DNA of 64,000 nucleotides from Gemmatimonas sp. (GTDB taxonomy: Bacteria > Gemmatimonadota > Gemmatimonadetes > Gemmatimonadales > Gemmatimonadaceae). Shown here piece by piece: positions 16,160-53,614 of the stretch. The stretch covers positions 124,001 through 188,000 of the forward strand of contig NZ_JAJTHI010000010.1 of NCBI RefSeq assembly GCF_021298855.1. The letters are read 5' to 3'. Each line of letters begins with the position of its first letter. Positions within the stretch are counted from its first letter, which is position 1. The notes under the pieces are model-generated. The model saw only the letters and a program-made list of their open reading frames with translations. It made no database searches and was not told the DNA's origin. The position numbers and the translations under genes are program-made.

Positions 16160-16161
16160 CG

Positions 16162-32956: not shown

Positions 32957-33787
32957 ATGTCTGACACCGTGACCCCGCCCTCCGTGCGTGTGGTCGTCCT
33001 ATCCAAGCCGCACCCTCTCACACGCCACCTGCTGAGCAGGCTGGCGGAGCGGCACGCATTGGTCGGGGTGATCTACGAGGACCGATTCCGCTCGGTGGGA
33101 GACCGGCTCCGGTATCTCCGGCGCAATGCCCGACGGGAGGGATGGTGGCACACGGCGTGGGTCCTCGCCTACGAGGTGTTCGATCGGCTGACGCGCCCCT
33201 CGGCCTTGGGCGACGCAGTGGCCCGGGTCCTTCCCCCGGCGCAACCGCTTCCGGACGACGTACCGGTCCGGACGGTCCGCTCGCTGAACGGTGCCGAGGC
33301 CCGCGCACTCATCACCGAATGGGCGCCGGATCTGCTGGTCGTGCACGCCACCGGGATTCTCAACCGGGCGACCTTCGAGCTGGCACGCGTGGCGGCACTG
33401 AACATCCATTGCGGTGTGCTCCCGGAGTATCGCGGACACGCGAGCACGTTCCATGCGCTCGCCCGCGGCGACCTCGACAACCTCGGGGTGACCGTGCACC
33501 ACATCGCCCCCACCGTGGACACCGGTGCCGCGGTGGCGGTGGCGCGTGTGCCCTTCGGCCGAGAGGACGACGACGTGACCATCTGGTGTCGCGCGTTCGC
33601 CGCGGGCACCGACGTGGTGCTCCGGCAAGTCGATCGGCTGTCCCGCGGTGAGCCTGTCGACGCCGTTCCCTACGAAGGGCAGTTCGGCCCGCACTACCGA
33701 CGTCGGGCGCTACCGGAACATCTGCGCTTCACCTGGTTTGCCCTGCCGCGACTCCGGCGCCGCGCCGGCCAGCAGGGAGGACGCTGA
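32957..33787 (+). CDS. Formyltransferase (nucleotide-sugar N-formyltransferase-like)
   Basis: The 276-residue protein has the formyl-transfer core with the catalytic Asn149-His151-Asp188 set: LNIHCGVLPEYRGHAS and HHIAPTVDTGAAV. These enzymes move a formyl group from N10-formyl-THF to an amine. It is not methionyl-tRNA formyltransferase: no tRNA-binding C-terminal domain is seen, and it sits in a polysaccharide locus. With RmlA, RmlB, an FdtB/QdtB-like aminotransferase and an FdtA/QdtA-like cupin nearby, formylation of a dTDP-3-amino sugar (as with QdtF-type enzymes) is the best guess. It is followed 4 nt later by the GNAT gene. Confidence 0.83.
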   Translation: MSDTVTPPSVRVVVLSKPHPLTRHLLSRLAERHALVGVIYEDRFRSVGDRLRYLRRNARREGWWHTAWVLAYEVFDRLTRPSALGDAVARVLPPAQPLPDDVPVRTVRSLNGAEARALITEWAPDLLVVHATGILNRATFELARVAALNIHCGVLPEYRGHASTFHALARGDLDNLGVTVHHIAPTVDTGAAVAVARVPFGREDDDVTIWCRAFAAGTDVVLRQVDRLSRGEPVDAVPYEGQFGPHYRRRALPEHLRFTWFALPRLRRRAGQQGGR

Positions 33788-33791
33788 CGCG

Positions 33792-34916
33792 ATGGGGCTG
33801 CAGATCCGACTGGCCCGCCCCGACGACGCCGAGGCCATCGCGCGGCTCAACGCGCGCCTCAGGGCGGGTGGTGTGGATACCCTGGTGTATCCGCCGGACG
33901 TCGTTCCCGCCGCCCAGCCGGACGAGCCGCAGGAGTCCTACTACGTTGTGGCCGACGGCGACGAGATTCGCGGCAGCGTCTACCTGCGGCGCAGCCGACT
34001 CTGGCTGGCCGAGCGTTCGATCCCCGTGGGCTGGATCAAGTACCCGGTCGCCGAAAGCCTGGTGGAGCGACGATTTGCGGGGGTGCCGGCCGCCATGATC
34101 ATGCACCTCCAACGCGAGCTGCCGACGCTCCTTGCCGTGGGCATGGGAGGCCTGCAGGGACAGTTCGCCAAGCTGCTGCAGGCCCTTCGCTGGTCGGGGG
34201 CCGTCGTGCCGACGTACGTGCTGCCCGTCGATCCACTGCCGGTGCTGACGGAGCTCCCACAGCTCGCCTCGCGCCCTCGCGTGCGACGCGCCGCGTCGGT
34301 GCTGCGCCTGTGCGGTGCCGCTCCCGTGACGCGCGGGGCGCTTCGTGCGTGGAATGCGATCCGCGGGATCGGCACCCTCCGCGATATCCGGGTCTCGCCA
34401 TACGCCGCTCCGGATGCCGGGTGGGATGCGCTCTTTCGCCAGATCCGGGGGAGCTATCGGGCCATGGCCGACCGCGGCCAACGCGCGGTAACATGGGCGA
34501 TCCCTCCGGCAGCGCCGGGTGTCGGCTTCTGGACGGTCGAGCGGCAAGGTCAGCGGCTCGGCTGGTTTGCCGCGCAGCAGTTCGACTTTCGGCGCGCACG
34601 CCATCGGCCGTATGGCGCCCTGCGCGTGGGGATGCTGCACGACATGCTGGCGGATCCCGCCAACGCCGGCGCTGTCGTGACGGCAGCGGTTCGCACACTG
34701 GTGAAGGGTGGGGCGCAATTGCTCGTGGGAAACCACAGCGCGCCGGAGTGGCGCCCCGCCTTTCGCGCGGCAGGCTTTCTGGAAGCGCCGCCGTCCTTTG
34801 CCTGCCTGGCTTCACCGGCGCTTGTCCGTGTACTTGCGGAGGCGGGCCTCACCCCGGCACAGCTCTATGTCACCCGCGGTGATGACGGGGTCATGAACCC
34901 CGAGGTCGTCGAATGA
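33792..34916 (+). CDS. GNAT-family N-acyltransferase
   Basis: The 374-residue protein begins with a classic GNAT start (IRLARPDDAEAIARLNARLR) and has GNAT-like character again in its C-terminal half (VERQGQRLGWFAAQQFDF ... AVVTAAVRTLVKGG), suggesting two tandem domains. Acyl-CoA or acyl-ACP is the likely donor; the acceptor could be the amino sugar or the growing chain. ATG 33792 lies 4 nt after the formyltransferase stop; an earlier in-frame start at 33648 would overlap that gene. It overlaps the next gene by 4 nt (ATGA). Confidence 0.75.
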   Translation: MGLQIRLARPDDAEAIARLNARLRAGGVDTLVYPPDVVPAAQPDEPQESYYVVADGDEIRGSVYLRRSRLWLAERSIPVGWIKYPVAESLVERRFAGVPAAMIMHLQRELPTLLAVGMGGLQGQFAKLLQALRWSGAVVPTYVLPVDPLPVLTELPQLASRPRVRRAASVLRLCGAAPVTRGALRAWNAIRGIGTLRDIRVSPYAAPDAGWDALFRQIRGSYRAMADRGQRAVTWAIPPAAPGVGFWTVERQGQRLGWFAAQQFDFRRARHRPYGALRVGMLHDMLADPANAGAVVTAAVRTLVKGGAQLLVGNHSAPEWRPAFRAAGFLEAPPSFACLASPALVRVLAEAGLTPAQLYVTRGDDGVMNPEVVE

Positions 34917-36052
34917 GCGCGACGACGGGCACGCCGGACCTGGCGCATGTCGTGCATGTGGTGGAAACGCTGGGCATGGGGGGAATGGAGCGTGCCATCG
35001 CCACGCTGTGCCGAACGCTGCGAGCACGGCAGATCCGCACCAGCGTGATCGCCATGAAGCAGCTGGGCGCGGTGGCTGACGAACTGCGGGACATGGGCGT
35101 GCCCGTGCACCTCGCGGGCGTACCGGTCTCACCACCGGACTACTTCGCGTGGCGGTGCCTGGTGCCGGTGCTCCGTGAGGTGCGCCCCACCGTGGTGCAT
35201 ACCCACAATTCGGCACCCCTGATCTACGGTGCCCCGTCAGCCCGCTGGTGTGGAGTGCGCCGCATCGTGCATACCGACCACGGTCGTGTGCTGCCCGACC
35301 GGCGACACATCATGATCGCCGAACGGTGGGCCGCCTCCGTTGTGCACGCAATGGTCGCCGTCTCCGCACCATTGGCGGAACAGCTCGCCGCTCACCTGCA
35401 CATCGGGCCGCACAAGCTGCACGTGATCGTCAATGGCGTGAACGCCGTGGTTCCCGTGGCGCCTGCGCAGCGCGATCGGACACGCGCTGCATGGTTCGGG
35501 GCAACCGACGGGCCGATCGTGGGGTTGGCCGCCAGGTTGGTATGGGAGAAGGGGCTGAACGTGCTGCTCGCCGCCTGGCCGCAGGTCCTGGCGGTCCATC
35601 CCGGTGCCCGCCTGCTGATCGGTGGTGACGGTCCCGAGCGCGCGGCGCTCGAGCGGATCATCGAACAGCAGGCGCTTGGCGCCTCGGTGTGCATGCCCGG
35701 GATGGTATCCGACATGGCGGCGTTCTATAGCGCCCTCGACGTGTTTGTGCTGCCCTCGGTATCGGAGGGACTGCCGCTCGCGCTGCTCGAGGCCATGTCG
35801 ATGGGGTTGCCCATTGTCGCGTCGGCAGTGGGCGGAATGCCGGCGGCACTGGGGCCGTCGCAAGCAGGCGTCCTTGTTCCGCCGTCCGATGTGGCGGCGC
35901 TGGCACGGGCCCTCTGCGAAACGCTGGATGGACTCGGCCGCGCCGACGGGGCCATCGCACTCGGTGCACGCGCCCGCGCCACATTCGCCCGCGAGTTCAC
36001 GGCCGAGGCGATGACCTCCGCCTACATGTCGCTGTACGGCATCAGGACGTGA
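34913..36052 (+). CDS. Family 4 glycosyltransferase (Stp2-like, exosortase-locus type)
   Basis: This 379-residue GT-B enzyme has the N-terminal HVVHVVETLGMGGMERAIATL (glycine-rich loop with the GGMER motif) and RPTVVHTHNSAP. The C-terminal half has GLAARLVWEKGLNVLL, LLIGGDGPERAAL and the donor-site SVSEGLPLALLEAMSMGLPI (EGLPLALLEA type). Close relatives occur in XrtA EPS loci. The start overlaps the GNAT stop (ATGA), and the gene converges on the AsnB-like gene (19 nt apart). Confidence 0.88.
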   Translation: MSATTGTPDLAHVVHVVETLGMGGMERAIATLCRTLRARQIRTSVIAMKQLGAVADELRDMGVPVHLAGVPVSPPDYFAWRCLVPVLREVRPTVVHTHNSAPLIYGAPSARWCGVRRIVHTDHGRVLPDRRHIMIAERWAASVVHAMVAVSAPLAEQLAAHLHIGPHKLHVIVNGVNAVVPVAPAQRDRTRAAWFGATDGPIVGLAARLVWEKGLNVLLAAWPQVLAVHPGARLLIGGDGPERAALERIIEQQALGASVCMPGMVSDMAAFYSALDVFVLPSVSEGLPLALLEAMSMGLPIVASAVGGMPAALGPSQAGVLVPPSDVAALARALCETLDGLGRADGAIALGARARATFAREFTAEAMTSAYMSLYGIRT

Positions 36053-36071: not shown

Positions 36072-37985
36072 TCAGGGCGCGAGTCGCGGCACCGTGAGTT
36101 GCGGCACCGCCGGTTGCTGTTCGACGTAGTGGCCGTGCCAGAGCGAGAACACCATGAGGGCCCACAAGGTGCTCTCGTGGTTGGCGCGACGGGTGGTGTG
36201 CGCCTGAAGCAGTTCGCCAATGGCGCGCACATCGAAGAGCCCCAGACGCTGCATGCGCGCCGCCGCCAGTTCGTCCTCCAGCACCGCGCGCATCTCGTTG
36301 CGCAGCCAGGAGGCCGTCGGTCCGACGAAACCACGCTTGGGCGCCGTGAAGTGATTTGGGGTGAGACGTGGCCGAACGGCCTCACGGAGCACCCATTTCT
36401 GCACCGACCCGCGAATGCGATAGTGATCGGGCAAGGTGAAGAGCCGTTCGACGAGCCGCACGTCCACGAATGGCACCCGGACTTCGAGTGAGTGTGCCGA
36501 CGAGACGCGGTCACTGAGGGCAAGGATGTCGTCGGGGAGATAGCAGCCGTAGTCGATCCGCAGCGCACTGCGCAGCGCACCATCAGCCGTGCCAGGTGCC
36601 CCGAGTGCACCGAAATGCGCGGTGTGTCGATCGCCGCGACCCTGTGGGCGCACGGCGGTGAACTCCGCCGGTCCGAGCCGCGCCACGAAATCCGCGTACC
36701 GTTCCACCGGCGTGCCATTGCCGGCCCGTACGAATCGCTTGAGTCGGGTGATGGAGAGCGAGCCGTTCCGGGGTTCGGGGATCGCCTGGGCAAGGCGGCT
36801 CACACCGCGACGCACGAGTGGCGGGACACGATTCCACCGGTCGGCCAGTGCCAGACCGCGATGCCGGCGGTATCCGCCGAACAACTCGTCACCGCCAGTA
36901 CCGGCAAGCACGACCTTGTATGAGGCGGCTACGGCCTGGGAGAGTATCCACGTTGGTACCGCCGATTCGTCGGCCAGCGGCTCATCGAGGGCGTGGCAGA
37001 TGGGACTCAGCAAGTCCTGCACGGCCGGTTCCACGTCGACCACGGTCAGCGGCAGGCCATAGCGATTGGCGAGGGCCCGAGCCAAGGGCACCTCATCGGT
37101 CCCCTCCGCACCACTCCCGTGGTAGCGGGCCGTGAAGGCACGCGAGGCGTAGCCCATGCCGGCCATGCCGCTCACGACGGCCGAGGAATCGATGCCCCCA
37201 CTGAGGAACGCGGCGATCGGTACGTCGGCCACCAGATGCGCCGCCACGGCATCGTCGAGCGCCTCGCGCACGTATGCCACGACATCTCCCCCCGGATCCA
37301 CGGTGCCCGTGGGCAGCTGCCAGTAACAGCGCTGTCGCGGGGATTCACCGCGGCGGATCGTCAGGGTATGCGCAGGTAGCAGCTTCCTTACGTCCCGGAA
37401 GATGCTCCAGGGCGCGGGCACGTAGCCCAACTGGAGGTAGAGATCGAGCGCCTCGCCATCGATTTCCCGTGACGTGGCGCCGACGGCGACCAGCGCCTTG
37501 AGTTCCGAGGCGAAGGCCACGAAGCCATGGCCCTCCGCGACATACAGCGGCTTGATGCCGAAATGATCGCGGCCAAGCAGCAGGGTGCCCCGATCGGCAT
37601 CCCAGATCGCGAAGGCGAACATGCCACGCAAGTGCTCCACCAGATGCTCACCGTAGTCCTCGTACAGGTGCACCAGCACTTCCGTGTCGCTGTGCGTGCG
37701 CAGCACGTGACCACGCGCCAGCAATTGCTCACGCAACGCCCGGTAATTGTAGATCTCGCCGTTCATCACGACACCGATCCGGCCGGTTTCGTTGAAGATC
37801 GGCTGATGTCCGCCGGCGAGGTCGATGATGGACAGTCGCCGCATGCCGATAGCGGCCGGGCCGTCGGCCCACACCCCCTCGTCGTCCGGCCCGCGATGGC
37901 GCAAGGCATCGCACATCGCCCCCACGAGGGTGGCGTCGCCCGCCCGCTGCCCGTCTCGCCACAGCAGTCCCGCTATGCCGCACAT
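36072..37985 (-). CDS. AsnB-like glutamine-dependent amidotransferase (XrtA-system type)
   Basis: The 637-residue protein has class-II glutamine amidotransferase and asparagine-synthetase domains. Cys2 (MCGIAGLL) is the glutaminase nucleophile, with RHRGPDDEG and MNGEIYNYRALR. The synthetase part has the PP-loop SGGIDSS (about residue 263) and GTGGDELFGGYRRH. Such proteins are a constant member of exosortase-linked EPS loci and probably amidate a uronic acid or similar acid in the polymer rather than making asparagine. It is the last gene of the ten-gene minus-strand operon, 12 nt after the FemAB gene. Confidence 0.88.
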   Translation of the reverse strand: MCGIAGLLWRDGQRAGDATLVGAMCDALRHRGPDDEGVWADGPAAIGMRRLSIIDLAGGHQPIFNETGRIGVVMNGEIYNYRALREQLLARGHVLRTHSDTEVLVHLYEDYGEHLVEHLRGMFAFAIWDADRGTLLLGRDHFGIKPLYVAEGHGFVAFASELKALVAVGATSREIDGEALDLYLQLGYVPAPWSIFRDVRKLLPAHTLTIRRGESPRQRCYWQLPTGTVDPGGDVVAYVREALDDAVAAHLVADVPIAAFLSGGIDSSAVVSGMAGMGYASRAFTARYHGSGAEGTDEVPLARALANRYGLPLTVVDVEPAVQDLLSPICHALDEPLADESAVPTWILSQAVAASYKVVLAGTGGDELFGGYRRHRGLALADRWNRVPPLVRRGVSRLAQAIPEPRNGSLSITRLKRFVRAGNGTPVERYADFVARLGPAEFTAVRPQGRGDRHTAHFGALGAPGTADGALRSALRIDYGCYLPDDILALSDRVSSAHSLEVRVPFVDVRLVERLFTLPDHYRIRGSVQKWVLREAVRPRLTPNHFTAPKRGFVGPTASWLRNEMRAVLEDELAAARMQRLGLFDVRAIGELLQAHTTRRANHESTLWALMVFSLWHGHYVEQQPAVPQLTVPRLAP

Positions 37986-37997
37986 GGTGGTCGTCTC

Positions 37998-39044
37998 TCA
38001 GGGAATGAGCCGGACTACGAGCGGCCCCAGGCGATTGGCGAGCGGCAGCGGCAGACGCCGCCACACGCGTGGGGCGTACGACATCATGCCGGAGTCGGGG
38101 TTGGGCGTTGCGGTGCGCCCACCCTTGGCAACCTGATACCAGTGCAGCATTTCGTCGTGTCCGCCCCATTGCAGCTTGAACTTGTGGGTGCTGGCACCCG
38201 GCGTCGATCGCCCGAAGTTGAAGCGCGCACATCCCGCGGCCATGGCCCGCTGCATGAACTCCCAGTACAGCAGCATGTTCGGCGCCACGCGGTTGTAGGC
38301 GCGAAGCGATGACGCCCAGGTGATCTCGAACTCCCGGTCCCAGCGAAAGCCCATACCGCAGGCGATCGGCGTGCCGTTGTGGTAGGCCACACCCGTCCAC
38401 GCATCATCGCCAAAGGCGTCCGCGAGGGCCTCGAACAGGCGCACACCGTGGGTGGGCGTGCCCAGATCACGCATGTGCGACGAGAACACCCGATGGAAGT
38501 CCGCCACACAGTCGCGGCCGAAGCGCACCGTGACGCCCTCCTTCTGCGGGCGTCGCACCTGACTCCGCAGCTTGGCGGGGAACGCCTTGAACAACGCATC
38601 GGGCGAATCGGGCAACGGCAACAGTACGGCCACCTTGCGATGCGACACCGCAAGGTCGATCGGCTGTGGCGTGCGACTGCGCAGTTCCAGCAGATCCACC
38701 TCATCATCGGCGGCCATGCGTACCGCCTCGGCCACCAGCGCCTGCACGACCTCATCCGAGCCGAGCGGCCCCCCGTGATTCACGAAGGGCATGGAGACGA
38801 GAAAGTGCCCGAAGAGGGGACTGCGAATGCGCATCAGCGGGAGCACCCCCCGTACGCGCCCCTGCGAGTCACAGGCAGCGAGGCGGCAGTCCTCGTGTCC
38901 CAGCACGTCGCGAAAGACACGGGACCAGCCCGAGAGATGGAAGTGCGTCCAGGTGGGCTGGGTGCGCACGAAGGCGTCCCACGCCCCATCATCGGCGTAG
39001 CCGCGCACGATACGCGCGCCCGACGGCATGGCCTCGGTGCCCAT
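37998..39044 (-). CDS. FemAB-family acyltransferase (XrtA-system type)
   Basis: The 348-residue protein has two GNAT-like halves of FemAB/peptidoglycan-bridge type: THFHLSGWSRVFRDVLGHED, then PLPDSPDALFKAFPAKLRSQ and VRRPQKEGVTVR, and a C-terminal DREFEITWASSLRAYNRVAP. Conserved in XrtA-associated polysaccharide loci, it probably transfers an aminoacyl or acyl group in building the EPS or linking it to protein; the substrate is unknown. ATG 39044 overlaps the deacetylase stop by one base (TGATG). Confidence 0.85.
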   Translation of the reverse strand: MGTEAMPSGARIVRGYADDGAWDAFVRTQPTWTHFHLSGWSRVFRDVLGHEDCRLAACDSQGRVRGVLPLMRIRSPLFGHFLVSMPFVNHGGPLGSDEVVQALVAEAVRMAADDEVDLLELRSRTPQPIDLAVSHRKVAVLLPLPDSPDALFKAFPAKLRSQVRRPQKEGVTVRFGRDCVADFHRVFSSHMRDLGTPTHGVRLFEALADAFGDDAWTGVAYHNGTPIACGMGFRWDREFEITWASSLRAYNRVAPNMLLYWEFMQRAMAAGCARFNFGRSTPGASTHKFKLQWGGHDEMLHWYQVAKGGRTATPNPDSGMMSYAPRVWRRLPLPLANRLGPLVVRLIP

Positions 39045-39895
39045 CAGGCTGCCACCGCGTGGCTGGTGCGATAGTCCCGCACCGAGGTAAAGGCGGCCGA
39101 CGCCAGCAGGGCGTCGAGACGGGGCAATGCGGTGGCAAGGCCGCTGTAGTGGCGAACGCGCGTCAGCCACCCGGCGGCAAGCCGGGGCTGCTCCGGATCG
39201 ATCTCCCACGGGTGGATGTAGCACATGGCGGGTGCCCCACGCGCTGCCGCCTCACGAACCGCCCGATGCAGCAGCGCCGGTGGCAGCATGCGCAGATAGC
39301 CGCCGCCGGCGCCCGGCAGCCGCATCGAACCGAACGACGCGGTCGCCAGTGGATATTGGTGTAGCGGTCCACTGGGCGTGGGAATCACGTACGGATCCCG
39401 CGGCGCGCCCGGGTTGCCGTAGCCTGGACGCACGATGGGAAAGGCGCTGGAATCGTACGTGAATCCTTCTTCGACGAGGATCTCCCATGCCCACTCCACG
39501 CCAGGGACGATGGAAAACGAGGGGGCCCGGTAACCGGTGATCGCCTCGCCGGTCACCGCCTCGAGTACGGCCTTCGAGCGACGCAGATCCTCGCGAAAGG
39601 CTTCGGGCGTGAGCGTCGTGACCCGGCGATGCCAGAAGGAATGGGAGGCCACCTCGTGTCCGGCCCGTGCAATGTCGCGCACCAGTTCCGGAAAGCGCTC
39701 CGCGACCCAGCCCAGGGTGAAGAACGTGGCCCGTGCGTCGTGCTTGGCCAGCAGGTCGAGCAACCGGCGCGTGTTCGTGTCGACACGCGTGGGGAACCGG
39801 TCCCAGGTGGCGATCGGCGCGATCGCCTCGAAGGCGCTGACCTGGAAGTAATCCTCCACGTCCACGCTGAAGAGATGCTGCGGCCGGGTCGTCAT
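39044..39895 (-). CDS. Polysaccharide deacetylase, XrtA-system type (DUF3473-like)
   Basis: The 283-residue NodB-fold enzyme starts with LFSVDVEDYFQVSAF (the DVED metal-binding variant seen in exosortase-linked deacetylases). It has ATFFTLGWVAERFPELV, HEVASHSFWHRRV (HSFWH metal His pair) and GYRAPSFSI, then a C-terminal extension (YIHPWEIDPEQPRL) of the DUF3473 kind. It should remove N-acetyl groups from the EPS or its precursor. It has no signal peptide. ATG 39895 overlaps the FkbH-like stop by 4 nt. A second, different deacetylase is four genes up the operon. Confidence 0.88.
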   Translation of the reverse strand: MTTRPQHLFSVDVEDYFQVSAFEAIAPIATWDRFPTRVDTNTRRLLDLLAKHDARATFFTLGWVAERFPELVRDIARAGHEVASHSFWHRRVTTLTPEAFREDLRRSKAVLEAVTGEAITGYRAPSFSIVPGVEWAWEILVEEGFTYDSSAFPIVRPGYGNPGAPRDPYVIPTPSGPLHQYPLATASFGSMRLPGAGGGYLRMLPPALLHRAVREAAARGAPAMCYIHPWEIDPEQPRLAAGWLTRVRHYSGLATALPRLDALLASAAFTSVRDYRTSHAVAA

Positions 39896-41721
39896 GCGGT
39901 ACGCCGGATTGCGGCCGGCCACGGCAGCGCGGTATCGGTGAGCGCCACGCCGAAGCACATGGTGTCGGTCGTGGGCATCGCCGGCTCCGGCTCGAACCCC
40001 AGCGCGGGGTACAGGTCGGCCACCACGCTGTTCCGCGGCCCCGGCACGTATTCGCCCAGCAGTCGCGTGCATCCCCACTGGCGAGCGACCTCCGCGGCAA
40101 ACGACAGGAATGCGTGCTCGGCACGGCGATTCATGACCCGGCAGCTCATGACCAGCACCTCGATGCGCGCCGTCTCCCCATGACGCGCAAGGACGGCGGC
40201 CGCGATGATGCCGTGGTCACCGAAGCGATCGGCCAGTCGCATGTGCAGCACGCGGTGGGTATCCGGCGTGGACATCCACTCCGTCACCTGCGCCTCGGAC
40301 GGGCGGCGCAGCGTGAGGTTGAACTGATTGGTCTTGGCGATCAGCTGTGCGACCCGTTGCCGTTCGAGCGCCGAGGTGGCCATCGCCTGTGCCGTCAGCT
40401 CGAGCGATCCGAGATACTCCTCGACGGTGGCGTAGGCACCCGCCACTGTCTGCCGTTGGCGCTCTTCCGCGTACTGACTGGCCCGACGCAGGTCCTCGGC
40501 CGAGGCGGCCAACTGGTCGAACCACGGTGCGGCAGCGAGTGCGCGCGGCAACGATCCCCACGGCTCGACATCGATCACGCGCACCGCCGGGAGCATCGAC
40601 TGCACTTCCGCCCGCTCCACCGGGTTGTCATCGAGAAACACGAGCGCATCGAGTCCGAGGCCCAACTGCTCAGCCATCCGCGCGAGGCCGGCGGACTTCG
40701 GCTCCCAGCTCACCGCGTGGGCCGCGAAGTCGTCCCATCGCAGGAGGAATTCGGGGTGTCGCGCGAAGGCATCGCGCACGACCTCCTCATCGTTCTTGCT
40801 CGCGATGGCGAGCAGCACACCGCGGTCGCGCAATCCGCGGGCGTGACGTTGCACCGCCTTGAACACGTTGCCCGGATAGTCGTCGCCCACCTTGAGTGCC
40901 TCGACGCCATCGTCGCCGACCACGCCGCCCCAGAGCGTGTTGTCGAGATCGAGTACCAGCACCTTGGCCGACGGCTGCACGGCCGCGCGAATCGTGCGCG
41001 CCAGATGCTGCGCCGCTGCAGGGTGGTGGATCGCCGCCACGGGTATGCGTCCGAGAAACCACAGGCGATCATCGCGCCAGACGCCGGCGCCGTGCGCCGC
41101 CACCAGACCAGCGTAATCCCAGACGTAGGCGCCACCGACCGCCGATACGGCTTCCCGCAGCGAATGATTCGCGTACGCGACCGCTTCCTGGCGTGAGGCG
41201 GCGACGGAGGCGTCACCCACGCCGAATGGCGACGCGGCGACGGGGGCGAAATTGGCCACCAGCGTCGTCCATCGGCCCGCGGTCCCGGCGCCGTCTCCGG
41301 CCCGTGCCTGCAGCAGTGCGGAGAGGCGCTGGACCAATGCGTCGAAGGACGAGCGCAACGTGGCCCCGGTGGCATCGGCTACCCGAATCGCGGCGTCGGG
41401 GCTCATGTCCTCGAGCCGCACCGCCACCACCACGACATCAGGCTGGAAGGCATGCAGCGCACTCGACTCGTCCAGCCACAGCGACTCGACCTCGCCGTAT
41501 CCGCCAATGAACAGATCCACGTCGAGACCGAGCCGGCCGAGTTCGACCCGCAGGAACGGCTCGATGAAGCCGAACGTGAACGAGGCGAGCAGGGCCACGC
41601 GCAAGGGGCGCGTGCCACCGCGCACCTTGAGCTCGCGAGCCAGGCGATGGTATGCGGAGGCGTCGGTGAACGGGGGGCCGTGGCGCAGCGATGCCGCTTC
41701 GCCGGGCGCGTGATCAGGCAC
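39892..41721 (-). CDS. FkbH-like HAD-IIIC protein with C-terminal GNAT-like domain (glyceryl-ACP type)
   Basis: FkbH proteins dephosphorylate 1,3-bisphosphoglycerate and load the glyceryl group onto an ACP. The 609-residue protein has an N-terminal SGNH-like region (about residues 40-240), the HAD nucleophile motif VLVLDLDNTLWGGVVGDDG (near residue 258), SKNDEEVV, LDDNPVERAEV, and a C-terminal acyltransferase-like part with MSCRVMNRRAEHAFL (conserved in this family). The partner ACP gene overlaps it by 8 nt directly upstream. This points to a glyceryl (or similar hydroxyacyl) decoration of the polysaccharide. The product is inferred from the family. Confidence 0.87.
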   Translation of the reverse strand: MPDHAPGEAASLRHGPPFTDASAYHRLARELKVRGGTRPLRVALLASFTFGFIEPFLRVELGRLGLDVDLFIGGYGEVESLWLDESSALHAFQPDVVVVAVRLEDMSPDAAIRVADATGATLRSSFDALVQRLSALLQARAGDGAGTAGRWTTLVANFAPVAASPFGVGDASVAASRQEAVAYANHSLREAVSAVGGAYVWDYAGLVAAHGAGVWRDDRLWFLGRIPVAAIHHPAAAQHLARTIRAAVQPSAKVLVLDLDNTLWGGVVGDDGVEALKVGDDYPGNVFKAVQRHARGLRDRGVLLAIASKNDEEVVRDAFARHPEFLLRWDDFAAHAVSWEPKSAGLARMAEQLGLGLDALVFLDDNPVERAEVQSMLPAVRVIDVEPWGSLPRALAAAPWFDQLAASAEDLRRASQYAEERQRQTVAGAYATVEEYLGSLELTAQAMATSALERQRVAQLIAKTNQFNLTLRRPSEAQVTEWMSTPDTHRVLHMRLADRFGDHGIIAAAVLARHGETARIEVLVMSCRVMNRRAEHAFLSFAAEVARQWGCTRLLGEYVPGPRNSVVADLYPALGFEPEPAMPTTDTMCFGVALTDTALPWPAAIRRTA

Positions 41722-41953
41722 GGGCCGCTACGACCCGCTGCACCACCGCGCCCACGGTACGCAGTTCCATCAGCTCGTCGGGTTCGAACTGCACACCGCA
41801 CGCGCCTTCGATGGCCAGCATGAGATTGATGTGCGTGAGCGAGTCCCACGACGGAATCGTGTCGGGAGACGCGTCATCGGAAAGCTGTTCGGCAGGGACA
41901 CCGAGCACACTGGTGAATACCGCGCGAACCTGGAGGGCCGTGCTCTCGCTCAT
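41714..41953 (-). CDS. Acyl carrier protein
   Basis: This 79-residue, acidic, helical protein has the phosphopantetheine attachment motif DSLTHINL (Ser in D-S-L) in a PP-binding domain. Its placement just before the FkbH-like gene (8-nt overlap) marks it as the dedicated carrier for the glyceryl or acyl group. It needs modification by a phosphopantetheinyl transferase; one is encoded at 15371-16159. It is an intact ordinary ACP, not a fatty-acid synthase ACP by context. Confidence 0.88.
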   Translation of the reverse strand: MSESTALQVRAVFTSVLGVPAEQLSDDASPDTIPSWDSLTHINLMLAIEGACGVQFEPDELMELRTVGAVVQRVVAARA

Positions 41954-41972: not shown

Positions 41973-42779
41973 TCAAGGCGGAGGCGTCATGCCGGCGGCG
42001 GGTGCGGCCGCGCGACGTTCCACGAGATAGCGCCGAAGGGCGCCGTATCGGCGGACCCCGAGCGCACTGCGCACCAGCGACAACGTGGACAGGCGCAGCG
42101 ATTCGCGTGACAGCGTTCCCGGCAGCTGCCTCACCATGGATTCGAACGCCTCCGGCATGGTACCTCGCCGCACCGTGTACCGCCCGAAGACGCCGCGACG
42201 CCGTTCCGCGTCACCATTCGCATGCCAGCGGCTGGTGGCGATGTGGCGATATCCACTGTCGTGCAAGAGGTGACGAAAGCGCCGCCGGGGCCAGTCGCCG
42301 TTCGGCAGGGCCAGGGTCACGACCGGTGCACCGATGTTGTCCTCGATCTCCCGCCGGCTGTCCACCAGTTCGCGTGTCACCGCGGCGGCATCGAGTGTCG
42401 AGAGGAACGGATGAGTCTGCGTATGCGACTGGATGGACCAGCCACCGGCCTGCAGTTCGCGCAGCTGCGACCACGTGCAGTACCCCGTCCGTCCCACCCA
42501 CGCCGGCACCACGAAGATCGTGGCGGACATACCCGCTTCGGCGAAGAGGGGGAAGGCCACGTCATAGTTGGACCGGTGCGCGTCGTCGAAGGTGATGGCC
42601 ACGCCGTGCGACTCGGCGCCGGCGTCGAGCACAGCCTCGAGCGAACGCCCGGCGATGGCGCGCTCCCGCAACCACGTCAGCTGCCGCGCCAACGCCGGCG
42701 CCGGAACGGCGAAGTAGTCGGCATCCTCGTGGCGCGCGGGGGTGGCATGGTACATCAGGGCCGCCCAGTGGGGTGTCAC
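41973..42779 (-). CDS. Polysaccharide deacetylase (NodB family)
   Basis: The 268-residue protein has VAITFDDAHRSNYDVAFPLF (metal Asp pair), MSATIFVVPAWVG, and WSIQSHTQTHPFLSTL (SHTQTH metal His pair). It differs from the DUF3473-type enzyme in the same operon and is closer to generic chitin/GlcNAc deacetylases. It starts at GTG 42779, one nt after the ligase stop. No signal peptide is visible, so it probably acts on the cytoplasmic side or on lipid-linked units. Confidence 0.85.
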   Translation of the reverse strand: MTPHWAALMYHATPARHEDADYFAVPAPALARQLTWLRERAIAGRSLEAVLDAGAESHGVAITFDDAHRSNYDVAFPLFAEAGMSATIFVVPAWVGRTGYCTWSQLRELQAGGWSIQSHTQTHPFLSTLDAAAVTRELVDSRREIEDNIGAPVVTLALPNGDWPRRRFRHLLHDSGYRHIATSRWHANGDAERRRGVFGRYTVRRGTMPEAFESMVRQLPGTLSRESLRLSTLSLVRSALGVRRYGALRRYLVERRAAAPAAGMTPPP

Positions 42780-42780
42780 C

Positions 42781-44217
42781 TCAGCCTCCCGTCGCCATTC
42801 CGGCAGGGACGGCGGTTGGCACCGCCCGCGCGCCCCGGCGTGACGAACGCCCGGGACGAGCGCGCCCCACGAATCGGGCCGCCTGCGGCACCGTGCGCAG
42901 CGCTATGCCGAGCGCCGTGAGCAGCATGACCATCGGGCTGAAGGTGGCACTCAGGAACATCGCACCAACCATGAACGTGATCACCGCCACCGCTACCGTT
43001 TCCACCTGCCGCTGGTACTGCAACTCATCGTCCGATCGGGGGGGGTGGGCGCGTACGCGCCACCACAGGGTCACGCTCGGCACCAACATGCCCAACAAGC
43101 TGAGGAAACCCGGCAGCCCGATTTCCGCCAGGCTTTCGACGTACATGTTGTGCGCCGCCGACCATTTCCAGCCCGCGTTCCGCCCAAGCTCCTCACGACC
43201 ATACCGCCCTTCCGCCTGACCGAACTGTCCGGCCCCGACCCCGGTGAGCGGTCGGGACAGGAAGTAGCCGATGCCACGCTTCCAGATCTTGGTGCGTCCG
43301 GTCTCGTCGGTGATGTTGTAGTCCTGACTGACGGTACCCAGGGTGCTGAGCCGCTCGATGTACTTCTGTGGGGCCAACAGCAACGCGGCTGCGACGGCCG
43401 GGAACATGGCCAGCCGCAGCCACATGGGCACGGCGCGACGCGCCAGCACCAGCGACATGATCACCATCACGGCGAAGGAGATCGCCCCGCCCCGGGAGTA
43501 GGTGCGGATGATGACATACATGCCAAGGACGAGGCCGATGAGGCCTGCGAAGCGCCACACCAGCTTGTTGTCGCGCAGCGCCCAGAGCGAGGCCGCACCG
43601 CACGAGGCCATCACCAGGGCCAGGTCGTTCGGGTCGTAGCTGCCAGCCAGCGTGGTGCGCGCGCCGTCGGCCCCATTGAGCACAACGCCGAAACCGGCGG
43701 CAATCAGCACCCCCATGAGGACCTGCATCACCACCATGCTGCGGAGCAGACGGCTCACGTCCCCCACGCCACGTACGGCCACCAGCATGATGAGGATGAA
43801 GGGTATGGTGCGCGTCACGAAGGCGAACGCGATCGCGAGCGTGTCACTGCGCAGCAGCGAAAAGGGCAGCGAGAGGTACAGCGCGGCGCTGAAGATGACG
43901 AGCGACTTCCCGATGGGTGTGGCCCAGCTGCGTCGCACGATGGCCAAGGTCGGCCCGGTGAGGAGAGCGATGGCGCCGAGGCCGAGCAGGATCTTGCCGG
44001 CCGGAATCGTCCCTTCGCCCACGGCATCGTGAATGCGTCCGACTATGGCCAGCACGATACCGATCGACAGCACGGACGCGAGCGTCCACGTGGACGATGC
44101 ACTGGCAGGAAAAGCCCCACGGCCCGCACGGCGCCGCGCAGCGGTGAAGCGCCCGCGCGGCCGTCCGGGCGCCGGGACTGGCGCCACCTGACGGGACATG
44201 GGCGATGGCGCCGTCAC
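42781..44217 (-). CDS. O-antigen ligase/polymerase-family membrane protein (Wzy/WaaL-like)
   Basis: The 478-residue protein has about 12 hydrophobic segments and a large periplasmic loop in the C-terminal half (LTGVGAGQFGQAEGRYG and WSAAHNMYVESLAEIGLPG), the Wzy_C signature with a conserved RxGxA-like/HNxYxE element (AHNMYVE). It should polymerise repeat units or transfer the polymer. It lies between the priming transferase and a deacetylase gene, each within 4 nt. Confidence 0.85.
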   Translation of the reverse strand: MTAPSPMSRQVAPVPAPGRPRGRFTAARRRAGRGAFPASASSTWTLASVLSIGIVLAIVGRIHDAVGEGTIPAGKILLGLGAIALLTGPTLAIVRRSWATPIGKSLVIFSAALYLSLPFSLLRSDTLAIAFAFVTRTIPFILIMLVAVRGVGDVSRLLRSMVVMQVLMGVLIAAGFGVVLNGADGARTTLAGSYDPNDLALVMASCGAASLWALRDNKLVWRFAGLIGLVLGMYVIIRTYSRGGAISFAVMVIMSLVLARRAVPMWLRLAMFPAVAAALLLAPQKYIERLSTLGTVSQDYNITDETGRTKIWKRGIGYFLSRPLTGVGAGQFGQAEGRYGREELGRNAGWKWSAAHNMYVESLAEIGLPGFLSLLGMLVPSVTLWWRVRAHPPRSDDELQYQRQVETVAVAVITFMVGAMFLSATFSPMVMLLTALGIALRTVPQAARFVGRARPGRSSRRGARAVPTAVPAGMATGG

Positions 44218-44221
44218 CGGA

Positions 44222-45013
44222 CTACCGCCCGCCGATGCGGAAAATCATGACCGGGACGGTGCGCAGCATGATGCGGACATCTTCCACGATGGACTGCCGC
44301 TGCATGTACTGAATGTCGAAAGCCACTTTGCGCCGAACGTCGTCGAGGTCGGTGTCGTAGGGGTTGGACACCTGCGCCAACCCGGTGATTCCGGGCTTGA
44401 CCCGCTGCCGCACGGGATAATCGGCGATCTGCTCCCGCAGGCGGACAAAGATGCTCGGGCGCTCCGGACGCGGGCCCACGATGTTCATGTCGCCACGCAG
44501 CACGTTGAACAGCTGCGGCAGTTCATCGATGCGGGACTTGCGGATGATGCCGCCGATCACCGTCACCCGATCGTCGTTCTGCTTGGCCCAGACCGCCTGC
44601 CCGTTCACTTCCGCGTCGACGCGCATCGAGCGGAACTTGTAGATCGTGAACGGCGTGCCCCCGAGGTCTTCCCGACGACGTTCGTTGAGCGCCCGCGTGC
44701 GATGCCATCGGCGGTCGAGTCCGACGCGGACCTGCGTGTAGAACACCGGGCCACGCGAACTCAGGCGGATGAGCAGCGCCGTGATGAGCATGACCGGCAG
44801 CGACGCCGTGAGCATGAGCAGCGCCACGACCACGTTGAAGACGCGACTCGCGAGCTCGGAACGGCGACGTGGTTCGAAGTCATCGCCGGGTCCCGTCTCG
44901 GACATCGCCTCCGCCGCGGCGGGCTCACCCGCCAACTCCGGGGAGCCGCTGGCACGCGACACCGTGCGTCCAGCTCCGGAAACCGGGATGGTCGATACGC
45001 GGGGATCCCTCAT
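44222..45013 (-). CDS. Priming undecaprenyl-phosphate sugar-1-phosphate transferase (short PglC-like form)
   Basis: The 263-residue protein has a short N-terminal cytoplasmic part, one re-entrant or membrane helix (VFNVVVALLMLTASLPVML) and the bacterial sugar transferase domain: RGPVFYTQVRVG, FTIYKFRSMRVDAE, RKSRIDELPQLFNVLRGDMN, VGPRPERP, and RVKPGITGLAQV. It starts repeat-unit assembly by moving a sugar-1-phosphate to undecaprenyl phosphate. It lacks the large four-helix region and CoA-like domain of the WcaJ/TIGR03013 type common in XrtA loci. ATG 45013 is chosen, 11 nt after the export-protein stop. Confidence 0.9.
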   Translation of the reverse strand: MRDPRVSTIPVSGAGRTVSRASGSPELAGEPAAAEAMSETGPGDDFEPRRRSELASRVFNVVVALLMLTASLPVMLITALLIRLSSRGPVFYTQVRVGLDRRWHRTRALNERRREDLGGTPFTIYKFRSMRVDAEVNGQAVWAKQNDDRVTVIGGIIRKSRIDELPQLFNVLRGDMNIVGPRPERPSIFVRLREQIADYPVRQRVKPGITGLAQVSNPYDTDLDDVRRKVAFDIQYMQRQSIVEDVRIMLRTVPVMIFRIGGR

Positions 45014-45024
45014 GGGCACGGTGC

Positions 45025-45888
45025 TCAGTTGTCCTGACGGCTGTAGTACCATTGAATGAACTGCAAGGCCGCAAAGAAGAGCGACGAGGCGACGAAGGCG
45101 AGCTGAACGACGAGACCCCAATTGACCTTGCGGCGCTGGGTGAAGCGTACCTCATCGCCGCTCTGGATGTCCACCTCTTCCAGCGTGCTGCCGTCCTTCA
45201 CGATGCGCTTGGCCGCCTTGGAGTCCACGAGCTTCGTGGCACCGCGCGTGGCCTCGAACTGATCGGTTTTGGCGTCCGGCAGCGGGCCGCCGGCCAGCAT
45301 CAGCAGATCGCTCACAGGACGGTCCGGTGCGGCATAATAGAAGCCCGGGCGCAGGACGGCCCCCAGCACGGACACCCGCGTGAGCACGCTGGTCCGGACA
45401 CTCGCATTACGGACGAATCGTGCCACGTGCGCGTTGATGTGCGTCTCCAATTCCGATCGCAAGACGCCGGCCACCGACACCTCGGGGAGGTTGAGCACGA
45501 GGACACGCAAGCTGTCCCGGACCAGCACCGTATCGGTGCGCACGCTATCCATGCGCACGGACACCACGAAGCGGTCGCCCACCCGGAAATCGCCCGTCTG
45601 CAGTCGCTGCTGGATGGCGGACCCTTCGCGACGCAGTCGACCCAGCGACGCACCTTGCGCCGAGCTCTGCTGACGCTGCAAATCGGCAACGCGTGCGGTG
45701 AGCTCGGCGCGCGTCGCCCGCTGGGGCCCGGCCACCACGATGTCCTGCGCTCCGGCTGCCGCACCGAAGCGGCTCAGCATGGCCCCGACGAGGAGAGCAC
45801 GTGCCACCACGGCCCGGCCGGATACTCCCCCGATGGCACTCCACGGGTTTCGAATGGTCAGCATGATACGGGCACCAGAGTTCATCAT
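45025..45888 (-). CDS. Wza-like polysaccharide export protein with C-terminal helix
   Basis: The 287-residue protein has a signal sequence (ALLVGAMLSRFGAAAGA) without lipobox Cys. It then has a Poly_export domain (RLQTGDFRVGDRFVVSV), an SLBB-type strand (VSVLGAVLRPGFYYAAPD) and DLLMLAGGPL. A hydrophobic C-terminal helix (GLVVQLAFVASSLFFAALQF) may be the outer-membrane pore helix, as in Wza. ATG 45888 overlaps the kinase stop by one base (TGATG); GTG 45891 is also possible. It forms the outer part of the export channel with the Wzc-type kinase next to it. Confidence 0.85.
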   Translation of the reverse strand: MMNSGARIMLTIRNPWSAIGGVSGRAVVARALLVGAMLSRFGAAAGAQDIVVAGPQRATRAELTARVADLQRQQSSAQGASLGRLRREGSAIQQRLQTGDFRVGDRFVVSVRMDSVRTDTVLVRDSLRVLVLNLPEVSVAGVLRSELETHINAHVARFVRNASVRTSVLTRVSVLGAVLRPGFYYAAPDRPVSDLLMLAGGPLPDAKTDQFEATRGATKLVDSKAAKRIVKDGSTLEEVDIQSGDEVRFTQRRKVNWGLVVQLAFVASSLFFAALQFIQWYYSRQDN

Positions 45889-48326
45889 CACGACCGCCCG
45901 CTGGGCAGCGCCGTGGTCTTGCGCGTGCCTTCCGGGAGGCGTTCCGTCGGCTCGTCCTTCGCCTCGTACTCCTGATAGTACGAGTAGTACTGATACGCGC
46001 CCTTGAGTTCGATGCCATTCAGGATGGCACCCATCACCCGGACGGGGAGCGTATCGACCACGGCCATCTTGGCTTCGGCCATCTTCCGGTCGGTGATGCC
46101 GACACGCATCACGAGCGCCATGTTGCCGGTGGCCGTGGCCAGCGCGTAGGCATCGAATCCGGCGCCCAGCGGCGGGGAGTCGATGATGACGACATCGTAC
46201 TCGGCCGCCATCTGGCTCACCAACTGAGTCAGGCGCGGCGTCGCCAGCAGTTCCGGCGCCTTGCGGCGACGGGCCCCACCGGGCAGGACCGTCAGATTCG
46301 GGTGCGCCTCGACCGGATGCAGCACCTCGGCAATGAGGGCCGTGCCGTCGAGGTACTCGACCAGCCCCGGCTTGGAGGGGATGTTGAAGGTCTTGGCGAG
46401 CTCGCCGCGGCGGATGTCGCCGTCAATGAGCAAGGTGCGCGCACCGGATTCCGCGAAGCTGAGGGCCAGGTTGCTCGACACCAGGCTCTTGCCATCCCCC
46501 GGCCCCGGGCTGGTGATGGTCATGGTGAGCGGGCGCCGCGGATCGGCCGCATAGCGCACGTTCATGCGCACGGTGCGGAAGGCCTCCACCACTTGGGCCG
46601 CCTGATCCGACTTGCTGCGACGCCCCTTGGCCGATACCACGGGCACCGCGCCGAGCACATAGAGCCCCAGATCACCGGTGACCTGCTCCGGGTACCGGAA
46701 ACGGCGGTCGGTCTGGTCCAGCACTATGGCCAGGAGGATTCCCAGCAGCAACATCGCGCCGGTACAGGCAAGAATGAGCACGGGGGCCGTGTTGCGCGTC
46801 GGGCGCAGCGGCGGCACCGCACCATCAAGGATGCTCACATCGGGAATGGTCGCCGCCTCGGCCAGCTTGGCTTCTGCCGCCTTGAGGTTGAGGCTCTTGT
46901 ACATCTCTTCACTCACCTCGACCTGCCGCTTGAGACGCTGCTCCTCAATGGTGCGGGTCGGAATGGTACGCAGGTCGCGACTGCTGCGCGCAATGCTGGC
47001 CGTGAGGCTCTGCTCGCGCTGCCGCAACTGACCGAGATAGGCTTCCAGCGCCGCCGGCACGGTCACGGTGCGCAACGCGGTCAGCGCCGCCTGCGCTTCC
47101 TTGACCTTGGAGAATTCATCGGTGTAGCTCTCGCGCAACTGCCGGAGCGCGAACTCCCGTTCCGCCTGATCCTTGAGCACGCTGCGCAGGTTCTCGGCGG
47201 CGGGGTCGGCATTCACATTGGGCACCGACAGCACCGCTTCCCGCGTGATGAGCTCCCCGCGGCGCGCGCCCTCGAGGATGCGATCGAGGGCTTCACGATC
47301 GCGCTGATAGGCGTCGGCCTGGATCTTGTCCCGGAAGTAGTTCTCGAAGACCGGACTGTTGGTCATCTCGATGCCAGGCTGAATCGTCTGCCGCTCCGTG
47401 GGTTCGGTGACCGTGCGCACACGAAAGCTCTCCAGCGCCGATTCCGCGGCTGCCAGATCCCGTGCCGCATACTCCCGCTGTCCCTCGAGGATGGCCGCCA
47501 CTGAGGTGACGTTCTTCTTCTTGAGCGCGGTCGCGGTGGCGACGAACTGCTCCACCCAGGCGTTCAGCGTGGTCGCGGTCCGCTGGGCATTGCTCCCGCG
47601 AAGCGAGATCGACAGGAACGAGGACCCATCCACCAGGTTCATCTGCAACTTCTTGATGAGCGCGATGGAGGCTTCACGCGGCGTCTGCACGCTGAAGCCG
47701 ATTTCGTCGCGGTTGCCCAGCGCCTCCAACGTGGGTTGCCAGACAAAGCCGATGCGTGCCCCGATGGAATCCCCAACGGCCCCCTGCTCCACTTCGAGCC
47801 CCTCCGCCGTGGCAAGCACGTAGCGTGGGCCATTCACCTTCAGCACGTAGCTGCCCGGGCGCAGCGACTGCTGCTCGCTGACGCGGAACGAGCGAAAGAG
47901 CGTGCTGTCGGCATCGCGGGCCGGCTGGACGAACAGCGCGAGGCTGTTGACCACCGGATCCGAAACGGCGAACGAGCGCATCAGATCCTGCCATCCCGAC
48001 GCCTTGAGCAGCTCCTCGGCCTGGATGGGGCCCCGATTCTGCCCGTTCACGGCCGTTCCCTGCTCCAGCAGGACGGTGGCCTGCACCTCGTACTCCGGCG
48101 TGATGAAGCGCGTCGCGGCCACACCCAGACCCGCCCCAAGAGCCGTCAACAGGAGGATGAGCCACTTGAAGCGGTTGATGGCCGCCAGATACCGCCCCAG
48201 CGAAGGCCCCTTGGGTTCGCTGGCGGACTCTTGCTCGCTCCCCCAATCAGCGGGAGGTGGCCCCTCCTGATAAGGGGCCGGCGCAAGGTCTCGCGATTCT
48301 ACAGGCTGGATCTGCTGTCCGGACAT
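45888..48326 (-). CDS. Wzc-type tyrosine autokinase/chain-length protein
   Basis: The 812-residue inner-membrane protein controls chain length and export. It has a Wzz N-domain with a first helix (FKWLILLLTALGAGLGVAA), a long coiled-coil/GNVR region to about residue 490, a second helix (LILACTGAMLLLGILLAIVL), and a cytoplasmic BY-kinase: Walker A SPGPGDGKSLVSSNLA (Lys near 613), Walker A' LLIDGDIRRGEL and Walker B VVIIDSPPLG. A C-terminal tyrosine cluster (YQYYSYYQEYEA) is the autophosphorylation tail. Fused Wzz and kinase contrasts with the split pair common in XrtA loci. It is the first gene of the operon, just after a sigma-54-like promoter. Confidence 0.92.
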   Translation of the reverse strand: MSGQQIQPVESRDLAPAPYQEGPPPADWGSEQESASEPKGPSLGRYLAAINRFKWLILLLTALGAGLGVAATRFITPEYEVQATVLLEQGTAVNGQNRGPIQAEELLKASGWQDLMRSFAVSDPVVNSLALFVQPARDADSTLFRSFRVSEQQSLRPGSYVLKVNGPRYVLATAEGLEVEQGAVGDSIGARIGFVWQPTLEALGNRDEIGFSVQTPREASIALIKKLQMNLVDGSSFLSISLRGSNAQRTATTLNAWVEQFVATATALKKKNVTSVAAILEGQREYAARDLAAAESALESFRVRTVTEPTERQTIQPGIEMTNSPVFENYFRDKIQADAYQRDREALDRILEGARRGELITREAVLSVPNVNADPAAENLRSVLKDQAEREFALRQLRESYTDEFSKVKEAQAALTALRTVTVPAALEAYLGQLRQREQSLTASIARSSRDLRTIPTRTIEEQRLKRQVEVSEEMYKSLNLKAAEAKLAEAATIPDVSILDGAVPPLRPTRNTAPVLILACTGAMLLLGILLAIVLDQTDRRFRYPEQVTGDLGLYVLGAVPVVSAKGRRSKSDQAAQVVEAFRTVRMNVRYAADPRRPLTMTITSPGPGDGKSLVSSNLALSFAESGARTLLIDGDIRRGELAKTFNIPSKPGLVEYLDGTALIAEVLHPVEAHPNLTVLPGGARRRKAPELLATPRLTQLVSQMAAEYDVVIIDSPPLGAGFDAYALATATGNMALVMRVGITDRKMAEAKMAVVDTLPVRVMGAILNGIELKGAYQYYSYYQEYEAKDEPTERLPEGTRKTTALPSGRS

Positions 48327-52532: not shown

Positions 52533-53614
52533 TGCGCGCCGTGCGTTCGCGGGTCGGGTCAGCGGTCGCGGCCAGTCTGGTTGCCGCCTCCGCACTCGAG
52601 TTTACCGTGCGCCTTGACGACTGGGCGCAGTTTGGCGTGCCCCTTGCCGCTCCTGCCGTGTCGATGGCTGAACTTGCCGTGCGTGACTCGCTGGGCTTTC
52701 ATGCGCGGGCCGGCGTGCATTTCCGGCAGTATCGCATCAACCGCTGGGGGTTTCGCGGTGACGACGTCGATCCCCGCAGCGGACGCGGGCCGCTGGTGTT
52801 TGCGGCGGGGGCCTCGGAAACGTTCGGCCTGTACGAGTCACCCGGCCGCGACTGGCCGCAGCAGTTGCAGGACAGCCTGAGCCAGTGTGCAGGCCCGGTG
52901 CGCGTGCTGAACGCGGCCTTCGCGGGCATGTCACTGCCAACGGTACGGCAGGACTTCGTGCGCCGACTGCAGCCGCATGCGCCCACGGTGTGGGTGTACT
53001 ACCCCACCCCCATGCAGTACCTCACGACGCCGCTTCCCACACCGGCGGAACCGCTGCCGGGTGCCATTCCCCCGTTATCACCGTGGCGCTCCCGGGCGCT
53101 GCCTCGCTTCCGGGATGCCATCAAGCGCGGCATCCCCGAACCGCTGCTCGACCTTGGCCGGACGCTCATGACGGCACGGGCGCGAAAGGCCGACGCAATC
53201 ACGGCGCGCACGACGGTGGACCAGGATCGTCTCGACGCCTTTGAACGGGATTTGCGCGCCCTCGTGGGCACCGTGCGCGGCGCCGGCACAACCCCGGTGC
53301 TGGTGGTGCATGCCAATCGCTTTGCCGACACCACGTCAGCGGACGCCCGCCGCATGCTCACGGCCTGGGAGCGCTTCTATCCGGAGTTCACCGGCACGGC
53401 CATCGTGCGCTTCGATGCAGCGGCGGCCGAGCGCACGCGCACGGTGGCGGCCGACTCGGGCATCATGCTCGTGGATCCACGCCCGCGCCTGCGCACTCTG
53501 GGGACGTCAGCCTTCCGCGATTTCGGGCATTTCAACGATTCGGGCGCCGCCGCTGTTGCCGGCGAGACCGCCCGGGCGGTGTCCCCTCTCGTGTGCCGGA
53601 GCAGCGCCCGGTAA
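52532..53614 (+). CDS. SGNH/GDSL-like protein (AlgJ/AlgX-type acetylation partner)
   Basis: The 360-residue protein has a short signal/anchor (VGSAVAASLVAASALEF) and an SGNH-hydrolase fold. Block I is VFAAGASETFGL (the GDS position reads GAS, with Ser nucleophile), a mid-domain Asn-containing VLNAAFAGMSLPT, and the C-terminal DFGHFNDSGAAAVA supplying the Asp/His pair. Placed after the MBOAT gene with a one-base overlap, it probably accepts the acyl group in the periplasm and passes it to the polymer. Esterase activity instead is possible. Confidence 0.8.
   Translation: MRAVRSRVGSAVAASLVAASALEFTVRLDDWAQFGVPLAAPAVSMAELAVRDSLGFHARAGVHFRQYRINRWGFRGDDVDPRSGRGPLVFAAGASETFGLYESPGRDWPQQLQDSLSQCAGPVRVLNAAFAGMSLPTVRQDFVRRLQPHAPTVWVYYPTPMQYLTTPLPTPAEPLPGAIPPLSPWRSRALPRFRDAIKRGIPEPLLDLGRTLMTARARKADAITARTTVDQDRLDAFERDLRALVGTVRGAGTTPVLVVHANRFADTTSADARRMLTAWERFYPEFTGTAIVRFDAAAAERTRTVAADSGIMLVDPRPRLRTLGTSAFRDFGHFNDSGAAAVAGETARAVSPLVCRSSAR

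Follow-up and report, generated by a model that had tools for sequence, protein, structure and literature searches.

A glyceryl-type acyl loader in an exopolysaccharide operon of Gemmatimonas and its possible part in an acyl swap on an amino sugar

Why would an acyl loader of the kind known from antibiotic biosynthesis stand among genes for a bacterial polysaccharide? The question is raised by a 64,000-nucleotide stretch of Gemmatimonas sp. DNA (the window; assembly GCF_021298855.1, contig NZ_JAJTHI010000010.1, positions 124,001 to 188,000), in which genes for an FkbH-like protein and an acyl carrier protein (ACP) lie within an exosortase-type exopolysaccharide (EPS) operon. We propose that these genes belong to a module that deacetylates and then reacylates an amino sugar of the XrtA polysaccharide, with the acyl group passing from FkbH to ACP to a GNAT-type transferase and a polysaccharide deacetylase, PDA2, freeing the amine. 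We consider this proposal about as likely to be right as wrong.

Profile searches agree with a sequence-only reading of the window that had called an FkbH-like gene overlapping a dedicated ACP gene. FkbH (39892..41721, minus strand; 609 aa from a GTG start) comprises a BF1531-like N-terminal part, a HAD-IIIC domain (76.5 bits) and a GNAT-like C-terminal part; it scores 307.5 bits against TIGR01686 (cut-off 146.65) and matches PDB entry 3slr (BF1531) with an E value of 8.7e-37. Residues D258, D260, D364, D365, N465, Q466 and S526-C527-R528 are invariant among 59 aligned homologs from across the phylum. It is the single FkbH of the 4.09-Mb, 91-contig genome, and its proposed task is to charge the ACP with a glyceryl group taken from 1,3-bisphosphoglycerate. 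The ACP gene (41714..41953, minus strand), whose frame shares 8 nt with that of FkbH, encodes a stand-alone protein of 79 aa (PF00550, 37 bits; cut-off 20.8) with its phosphopantetheine site at Ser38, in a DSL motif.

FkbH and ACP belong to the EPS operon and are not chance neighbours, because they lie in a one-strand run of ten genes (48326 to 36072) spaced by -97 to 19 nt, overlaps included. The order is Wzc, Wza, polyprenyl glycosylphosphotransferase, ligase, PDA2, ACP, FkbH, XrtA deacetylase, FemAB and AsnB, and the 3’ end of FkbH overlaps the XrtA deacetylase gene by 4 nt. Three XrtA-context models, TIGR03006, TIGR03019 and TIGR02602, score above cut-off; the exosortase itself (30229-31650) is above the cut-off for exosortases in general and reaches 182 of the 208 bits required by the XrtA model. 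The earlier view that a glyceryl-ACP-type loader is built into an exosortase-type operon thus stands. PDA2 (41973..42779, minus strand; 268 aa; PF01522, 80 bits) is a NodB-family deacetylase whose gene ends 19 nt upstream of the ACP gene. Its TFDD motif at residue 63 and HxxxH motif at residues 119-123 are both kept in 8/8 aligned members. PDA2, ACP, FkbH and the GNAT protein all lack membrane segments and can therefore meet in the cytoplasm.

Which protein might transfer the acyl group? Three candidates had been named in the sequence-only reading, and only one of them, the separate GNAT protein, tracks FkbH across genomes. The GNAT-like C-terminal part of FkbH is covered by the TIGR01686 match (residues 251-578) and was rejected as a polymer transferase, since it is an integral part of the FkbH domain. 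FemAB was set aside because it is an XrtA-wide gene that also occurs without FkbH (for example in genome G065 and locus L054). That reading had missed two further candidates, PDA2, which recurs in GNAT loci, and an MBOAT/SGNH gene pair at 51135-53614.

The orphan GNAT protein (33792..34916, plus strand; 374 aa, a tandem GNAT), our candidate glyceryl-ACP:amino-sugar N-acyltransferase, was followed through 148 genomes of the family, with homologs counted at E<=1e-5 and co-occurrence assessed by hypergeometric P. FkbH is present in 18/148 genomes. GNAT homologs are found in six, all of them among the 18 that are FkbH-positive (P 1.4e-6). In 10/11 GNAT loci a deacetylase is encoded no more than 4.5 kb from GNAT, compared with five deacetylases across 229 kb of EPS loci that lack FkbH. 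A quick FkbH tree requires at least three separate supported lineages for the FkbHs that have a GNAT partner.

The gene order varies among these loci. ACP-FkbH-GNAT with PDA2 upstream is found in G057 (L030), and PDA2, GNAT, ACP and FkbH stand together in G016 (L047). G109 (L031, L112) has FkbH-ACP-GNAT at a contig end and, on another contig, the end of GNAT with PDA2-AsnB. The order is FkbH-ACP-GNAT, one further gene and a deacetylase in G251 (L087); FkbH, ACP, GNAT and a deacetylase are found in G260 (L110), and overlapping genes in the order ACP-GNAT-VOC-FkbH-deacetylase in G240 (L113). The VOC protein of the last locus (L113:8791-9276) is methylmalonyl-CoA-epimerase-like (57.8 bits, below the cut-off of 114.95) and could epimerise an ACP-bound hydroxyacyl group. 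In G119 (L111:2524-7943), GNAT is preceded by a pyruvate dehydrogenase (PDH)-like E1 fusion, a lipoyl E2, an ACP and a NodB-fold deacetylase, which suggests that another loader stands in for FkbH. We take this E1/E2 arrangement to recall the glycolyl-ACP loaders of naphthyridinomycin-type pathways. A search of genome contigs with a four-row GNAT alignment returned three loci only. One of the three, labelled Chloroflexi (L121, VBHJ01000129.1), is probably mis-binned, given its near-identity to a contig of Gemmatimonadetes whose scaffolds are named in a similar way.

No Pfam or NCBIfam family, NodA included, matches the GNAT protein, so any likeness to NodA is proposed for its role only. Its structural model (pLDDT 85.5) shows two GNAT domains in tandem and can be superposed along the whole chain on N-myristoyltransferases (NMTs; Foldseek E 4.6e-12; VIA Z 19.3 over residues 1-365, 305 aligned, rmsd 5.0). 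Identity is about 10% and no sequence relation was found; the match is one of predicted common fold and does not imply homology. Such a fold fits the formation of an amide from an acyl thioester, a function that is predicted only. Like the eukaryotic NMT, the GNAT protein would make an amide from a thioester; unlike it, it would use another donor and another acceptor. For the second deacetylase family, found at some of the loci, a NodB/CE4-like fold tops the structure matches of a model with a pLDDT of only 70.

These observations suggest the following route. FkbH would draw a D-glyceryl group from 1,3-bisphosphoglycerate by means of its HAD aspartates, hold it as a thioester on Cys527 and transfer it to the ACP's phosphopantetheine arm. 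Cytoplasmic PDA2 would strip the acetyl group from an N-acetylhexosamine residue of a nucleotide- or undecaprenyl-linked intermediate, and the tandem GNAT protein would move glyceryl from the ACP onto the freed amine to give an N-glyceroyl amide. The glyceryl identity of the group, the amine as its acceptor, the sugar, the order of the steps and all of the chemistry are what we infer here. The XrtA EPS machinery would then build the polymer from the N-glyceroyl sugar and export it. On the minus strand, this machinery includes the Wzc-type chain-length/tyrosine kinase protein (45888..48326; TIGR01007, 124 bits, above cut-off), the Wza-type export protein (45025..45891; TIGR03027/03028, 28-29 bits, below cut-off), the polyprenyl glycosylphosphotransferase (44222..45121; TIGR03025, 257 bits, below cut-off) and the O-antigen-ligase/polymerase-like membrane protein (42781..44217; PF04932, 76 bits). 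Downstream of FkbH on the same strand lie the XrtA-system deacetylase (39044..39895; 283 aa; TIGR03006, 323.8 bits, above cut-off), the XrtA-associated FemAB protein (37998..39044; TIGR03019, 303.9 bits, above cut-off) and the asparagine-synthase-like XrtA amidotransferase (36072..37985; PF00733, 274.6 bits; TIGR03108, 513.7 bits, below cut-off). A GT4 glycosyltransferase resembling XrtA stp2 (34913..36052, plus strand; TIGR03088, 218 bits, below cut-off) is encoded next to the GNAT protein, the two genes sharing 4 nt.

Several observations weigh against this route. In the window, GNAT lies in a second operon on the opposite strand, about 5 kb from FkbH, and in the FkbH-positive genome G119 it is carried in a separate cluster. 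Two loci (L115 and L116, genomes G301 and G219) hold the deacetylase-GNAT pair with neither FkbH nor ACP nearby, which argues that the GNAT family is not tied to ACP donors. Some loci are close relatives, and some co-occurrence is expected because EPS loci have many genes in common. The P value of the deacetylase-GNAT linkage (1e-7) is only rough, because these loci had themselves contributed to the profiles used. The window also holds an MBOAT protein, FemAB and a second deacetylase. Finally, a formyltransferase-like gene (32957..33787, plus strand; PF00551, 49.3 bits) lies 4 nt upstream of GNAT and may provide a second acyl modification; together with a DegT aminotransferase at 22391, it offers alternative sources and fates for the amine.

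Formyltransferase-like genes recur near FkbH loci (here and in L030, L032, L036, L075 and L088), and none was seen in the fetched FkbH-less EPS loci; some of the BLAST labels derive from a part of the L030 open reading frame that is fused to it and is not a formyltransferase.

Alternatively, the XrtA FemAB protein might transfer the acyl group, or the group might be another hydroxyacyl such as lactyl, with GNAT serving a different step, for example N-acetylation after aminotransfer. Within the operon, FemAB is the second gene after FkbH, and polyketide pathways are known to include relatives of FkbH that differ in acyl specificity. However, FemAB occurs in FkbH-less EPS loci (L054), whereas in the family GNAT is confined to FkbH-positive genomes. 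We regard this pair of alternatives as improbable.

A somewhat better, though still unlikely, alternative is a Dlt-like pathway in which the ACP gives glyceryl to the MBOAT O-acyltransferase of the window (51135..52532, plus strand; DltB/AlgI superfamily; PF03062, 93.8 bits). The group would be moved across the membrane and, with the SGNH-like partner (52430..53614, plus strand; weak PF13472, below cut-off; true start later than that of the open reading frame), placed on the exported polysaccharide as an O-glyceryl ester. The only PDB sequence matches of this MBOAT are DltB proteins (6bug, E 3.3e-31), and the donor for DltB is a carrier protein. Contiguous FkbH-ACP-(SGNH)-MBOAT cassettes are known elsewhere in Gemmatimonadota (L032, L033, L034 and L086; also L074, L078 and L079). 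MBOAT and FkbH show mild co-occurrence, with MBOAT in 43/148 family genomes and in 11/18 of those with FkbH (P 0.0026). Yet the window MBOAT is not specific to the loader: its orthologs in the same-genus, FkbH-less genomes G133 and G142 are 85% and 81% identical, it is only about 31-34% identical to FkbH-linked MBOATs, and MBOAT adjoins PrsR/HK in FkbH-positive and FkbH-less genomes alike. GNAT rather than MBOAT thus tracks FkbH in the family, since GNAT is confined to FkbH-positive genomes and MBOAT orthologs occur in FkbH-less ones. The MBOAT/SGNH pair is probably not an FkbH partner here, as it is at other Gemmatimonadota loci, and the window MBOAT is more simply explained as an acetyltransferase that is present with or without FkbH.

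The loci with other arrangements suggest how such a supply may be used. Compact FkbH-ACP-SGNH-MBOAT cassettes (L034:6690-11450, L033, L032, L086) resemble a Dlt-type pathway in which FkbH replaces DltA. FkbH-ACP-deacetylase-hexapeptide acyltransferase is the order in a separate clade of about ten loci. Because its partners differ between loci, FkbH-ACP seems to be a movable source of acyl groups to which different transferases can be coupled, serving either cytoplasmic N-acylation after deacetylation or O-acylation at the membrane. On the same contig as the window, a second ACP (L004:5570-8977) is accompanied, as read from the sequences, by a KASIII-like gene, two SDR-like genes and a hexapeptide-acyltransferase-like gene; this set appears to be a further source of acyl-ACP for an enzyme that acylates a sugar.

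The loader might instead feed a pathway outside the polysaccharide. A hybrid nonribosomal peptide synthetase (NRPS; formyltransferase, A, luciferase-like LLM and PCP domains) and a type I polyketide synthase (PKS) are encoded on the same contig (L002:8175-18678; C31:192-203 kb). Glyceryl-ACP could be used by this system, 4 kb beyond the window end, or become a methoxymalonyl or tetronate unit, its place in the EPS operon being incidental. The window does encode an Sfp-type phosphopantetheinyl transferase (15371..16399, minus strand; PF01648, 55.7 bits), as the sequence-only reading had said; it is 24 kb away from FkbH and could activate the ACP, the NRPS/PKS, which also requires such an enzyme, or both. 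Against a link to the NRPS/PKS, FkbH is co-operonic with EPS genes, the PKS brings its own acyltransferase domain, NRPS relatives occur in FkbH-less genomes (G018, G024 and G034), and two genomes with FkbH and GNAT (G109 and G016) have no full-length NRPS. A few genomes of the family, both FkbH-positive and FkbH-less, carry near-full-length NRPS relatives. Among those neighbours of FkbH that were scanned, a set that does not take in every window gene, there is no FkbG/I/K-like dehydrogenase and methyltransferase set and no FabH-like tetronate gene. This use of the loader seems to us very improbable.

The proposed swap combines elements of several described systems. In Nod factor synthesis, NodB, NodA and NodF are a deacetylase, an ACP-dependent N-acyltransferase and an ACP. 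The module proposed here would share that logic, with a NodB-family deacetylase, an ACP and an acyltransferase that reacylates an exposed amine; it differs in its 374-aa tandem GNAT, which lacks a NodA Pfam match, in a C3 hydroxyacyl group in place of a fatty acid, and in acting on a polymer and not a lipochitooligosaccharide. As in D-alanylation by DltA/B/C/D, there is a carrier protein with its loader, and the window has MBOAT and SGNH genes; however, FkbH takes the place of the adenylating DltA and the MBOAT is not specific to FkbH genomes. Polyketide and tetronate pathways contain FkbH/ACP pairs such as Mad7/Mad8 and Mad14/Mad12, and glyceryl loading from 1,3-bisphosphoglycerate has been proposed for tetronate and methoxymalonyl pathways (PMC7489565). 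Our locus resembles these in its FkbH-like HAD protein, dedicated stand-alone ACP, conserved motifs and assumed source of the acyl group. Unlike them, it lacks adjoining dehydrogenases, a methyltransferase and a FabH-like partner, and it stands in an EPS operon with a deacetylase and GNAT pairing.

N-glyceroyl sugars are known in bacterial glycans, which makes such a product plausible here. For the Neisseria glyceramido sugar GATDH, the proposed catalyst is a PglB2 domain that attaches the group to a UDP-4-amino sugar, and no FkbH, ACP or deacetylase is described (PMC6959607); Tannerella Pse is another example (PMC9912281). The end product that we propose would be of the same kind as GATDH, whereas the route would use FkbH, ACP and a deacetylase. 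In the open-access literature, to which our search was confined and which leaves aside subscription papers, no paper joins FkbH with glyceric acid and polysaccharide, or with O-antigen and acyl carrier protein, and the sole match for FkbH with exopolysaccharide is a bioinformatics paper. The exchange of acetyl for glyceryl on an amino sugar by FkbH, ACP, deacetylase and GNAT is thus apparently an undescribed route.

If correct, the proposal would connect the glycolytic intermediate 1,3-bisphosphoglycerate with a substituent that a bacterial polysaccharide carries in amide linkage, by way of a loader known from antibiotic biosynthesis, and would give an orphan family of acyltransferases a function. 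It provides a small, concrete set of genes for expression and testing. One could further envision, more tentatively, that Gemmatimonadota possess a general module for acyl exchange on amino sugars, in which a NodB-type deacetylase and an NMT-fold tandem GNAT work with interchangeable ACP loaders (FkbH supplied from glycolysis, a PDH-like E1/E2 pair and perhaps an AMP ligase) to build N-glyceroyl or N-glycolyl sugars of EPS from central metabolites. If the proposed route is correct, it would suggest that, in polysaccharide loci, a change of loader is enough to replace one acyl group on the ACP by another.

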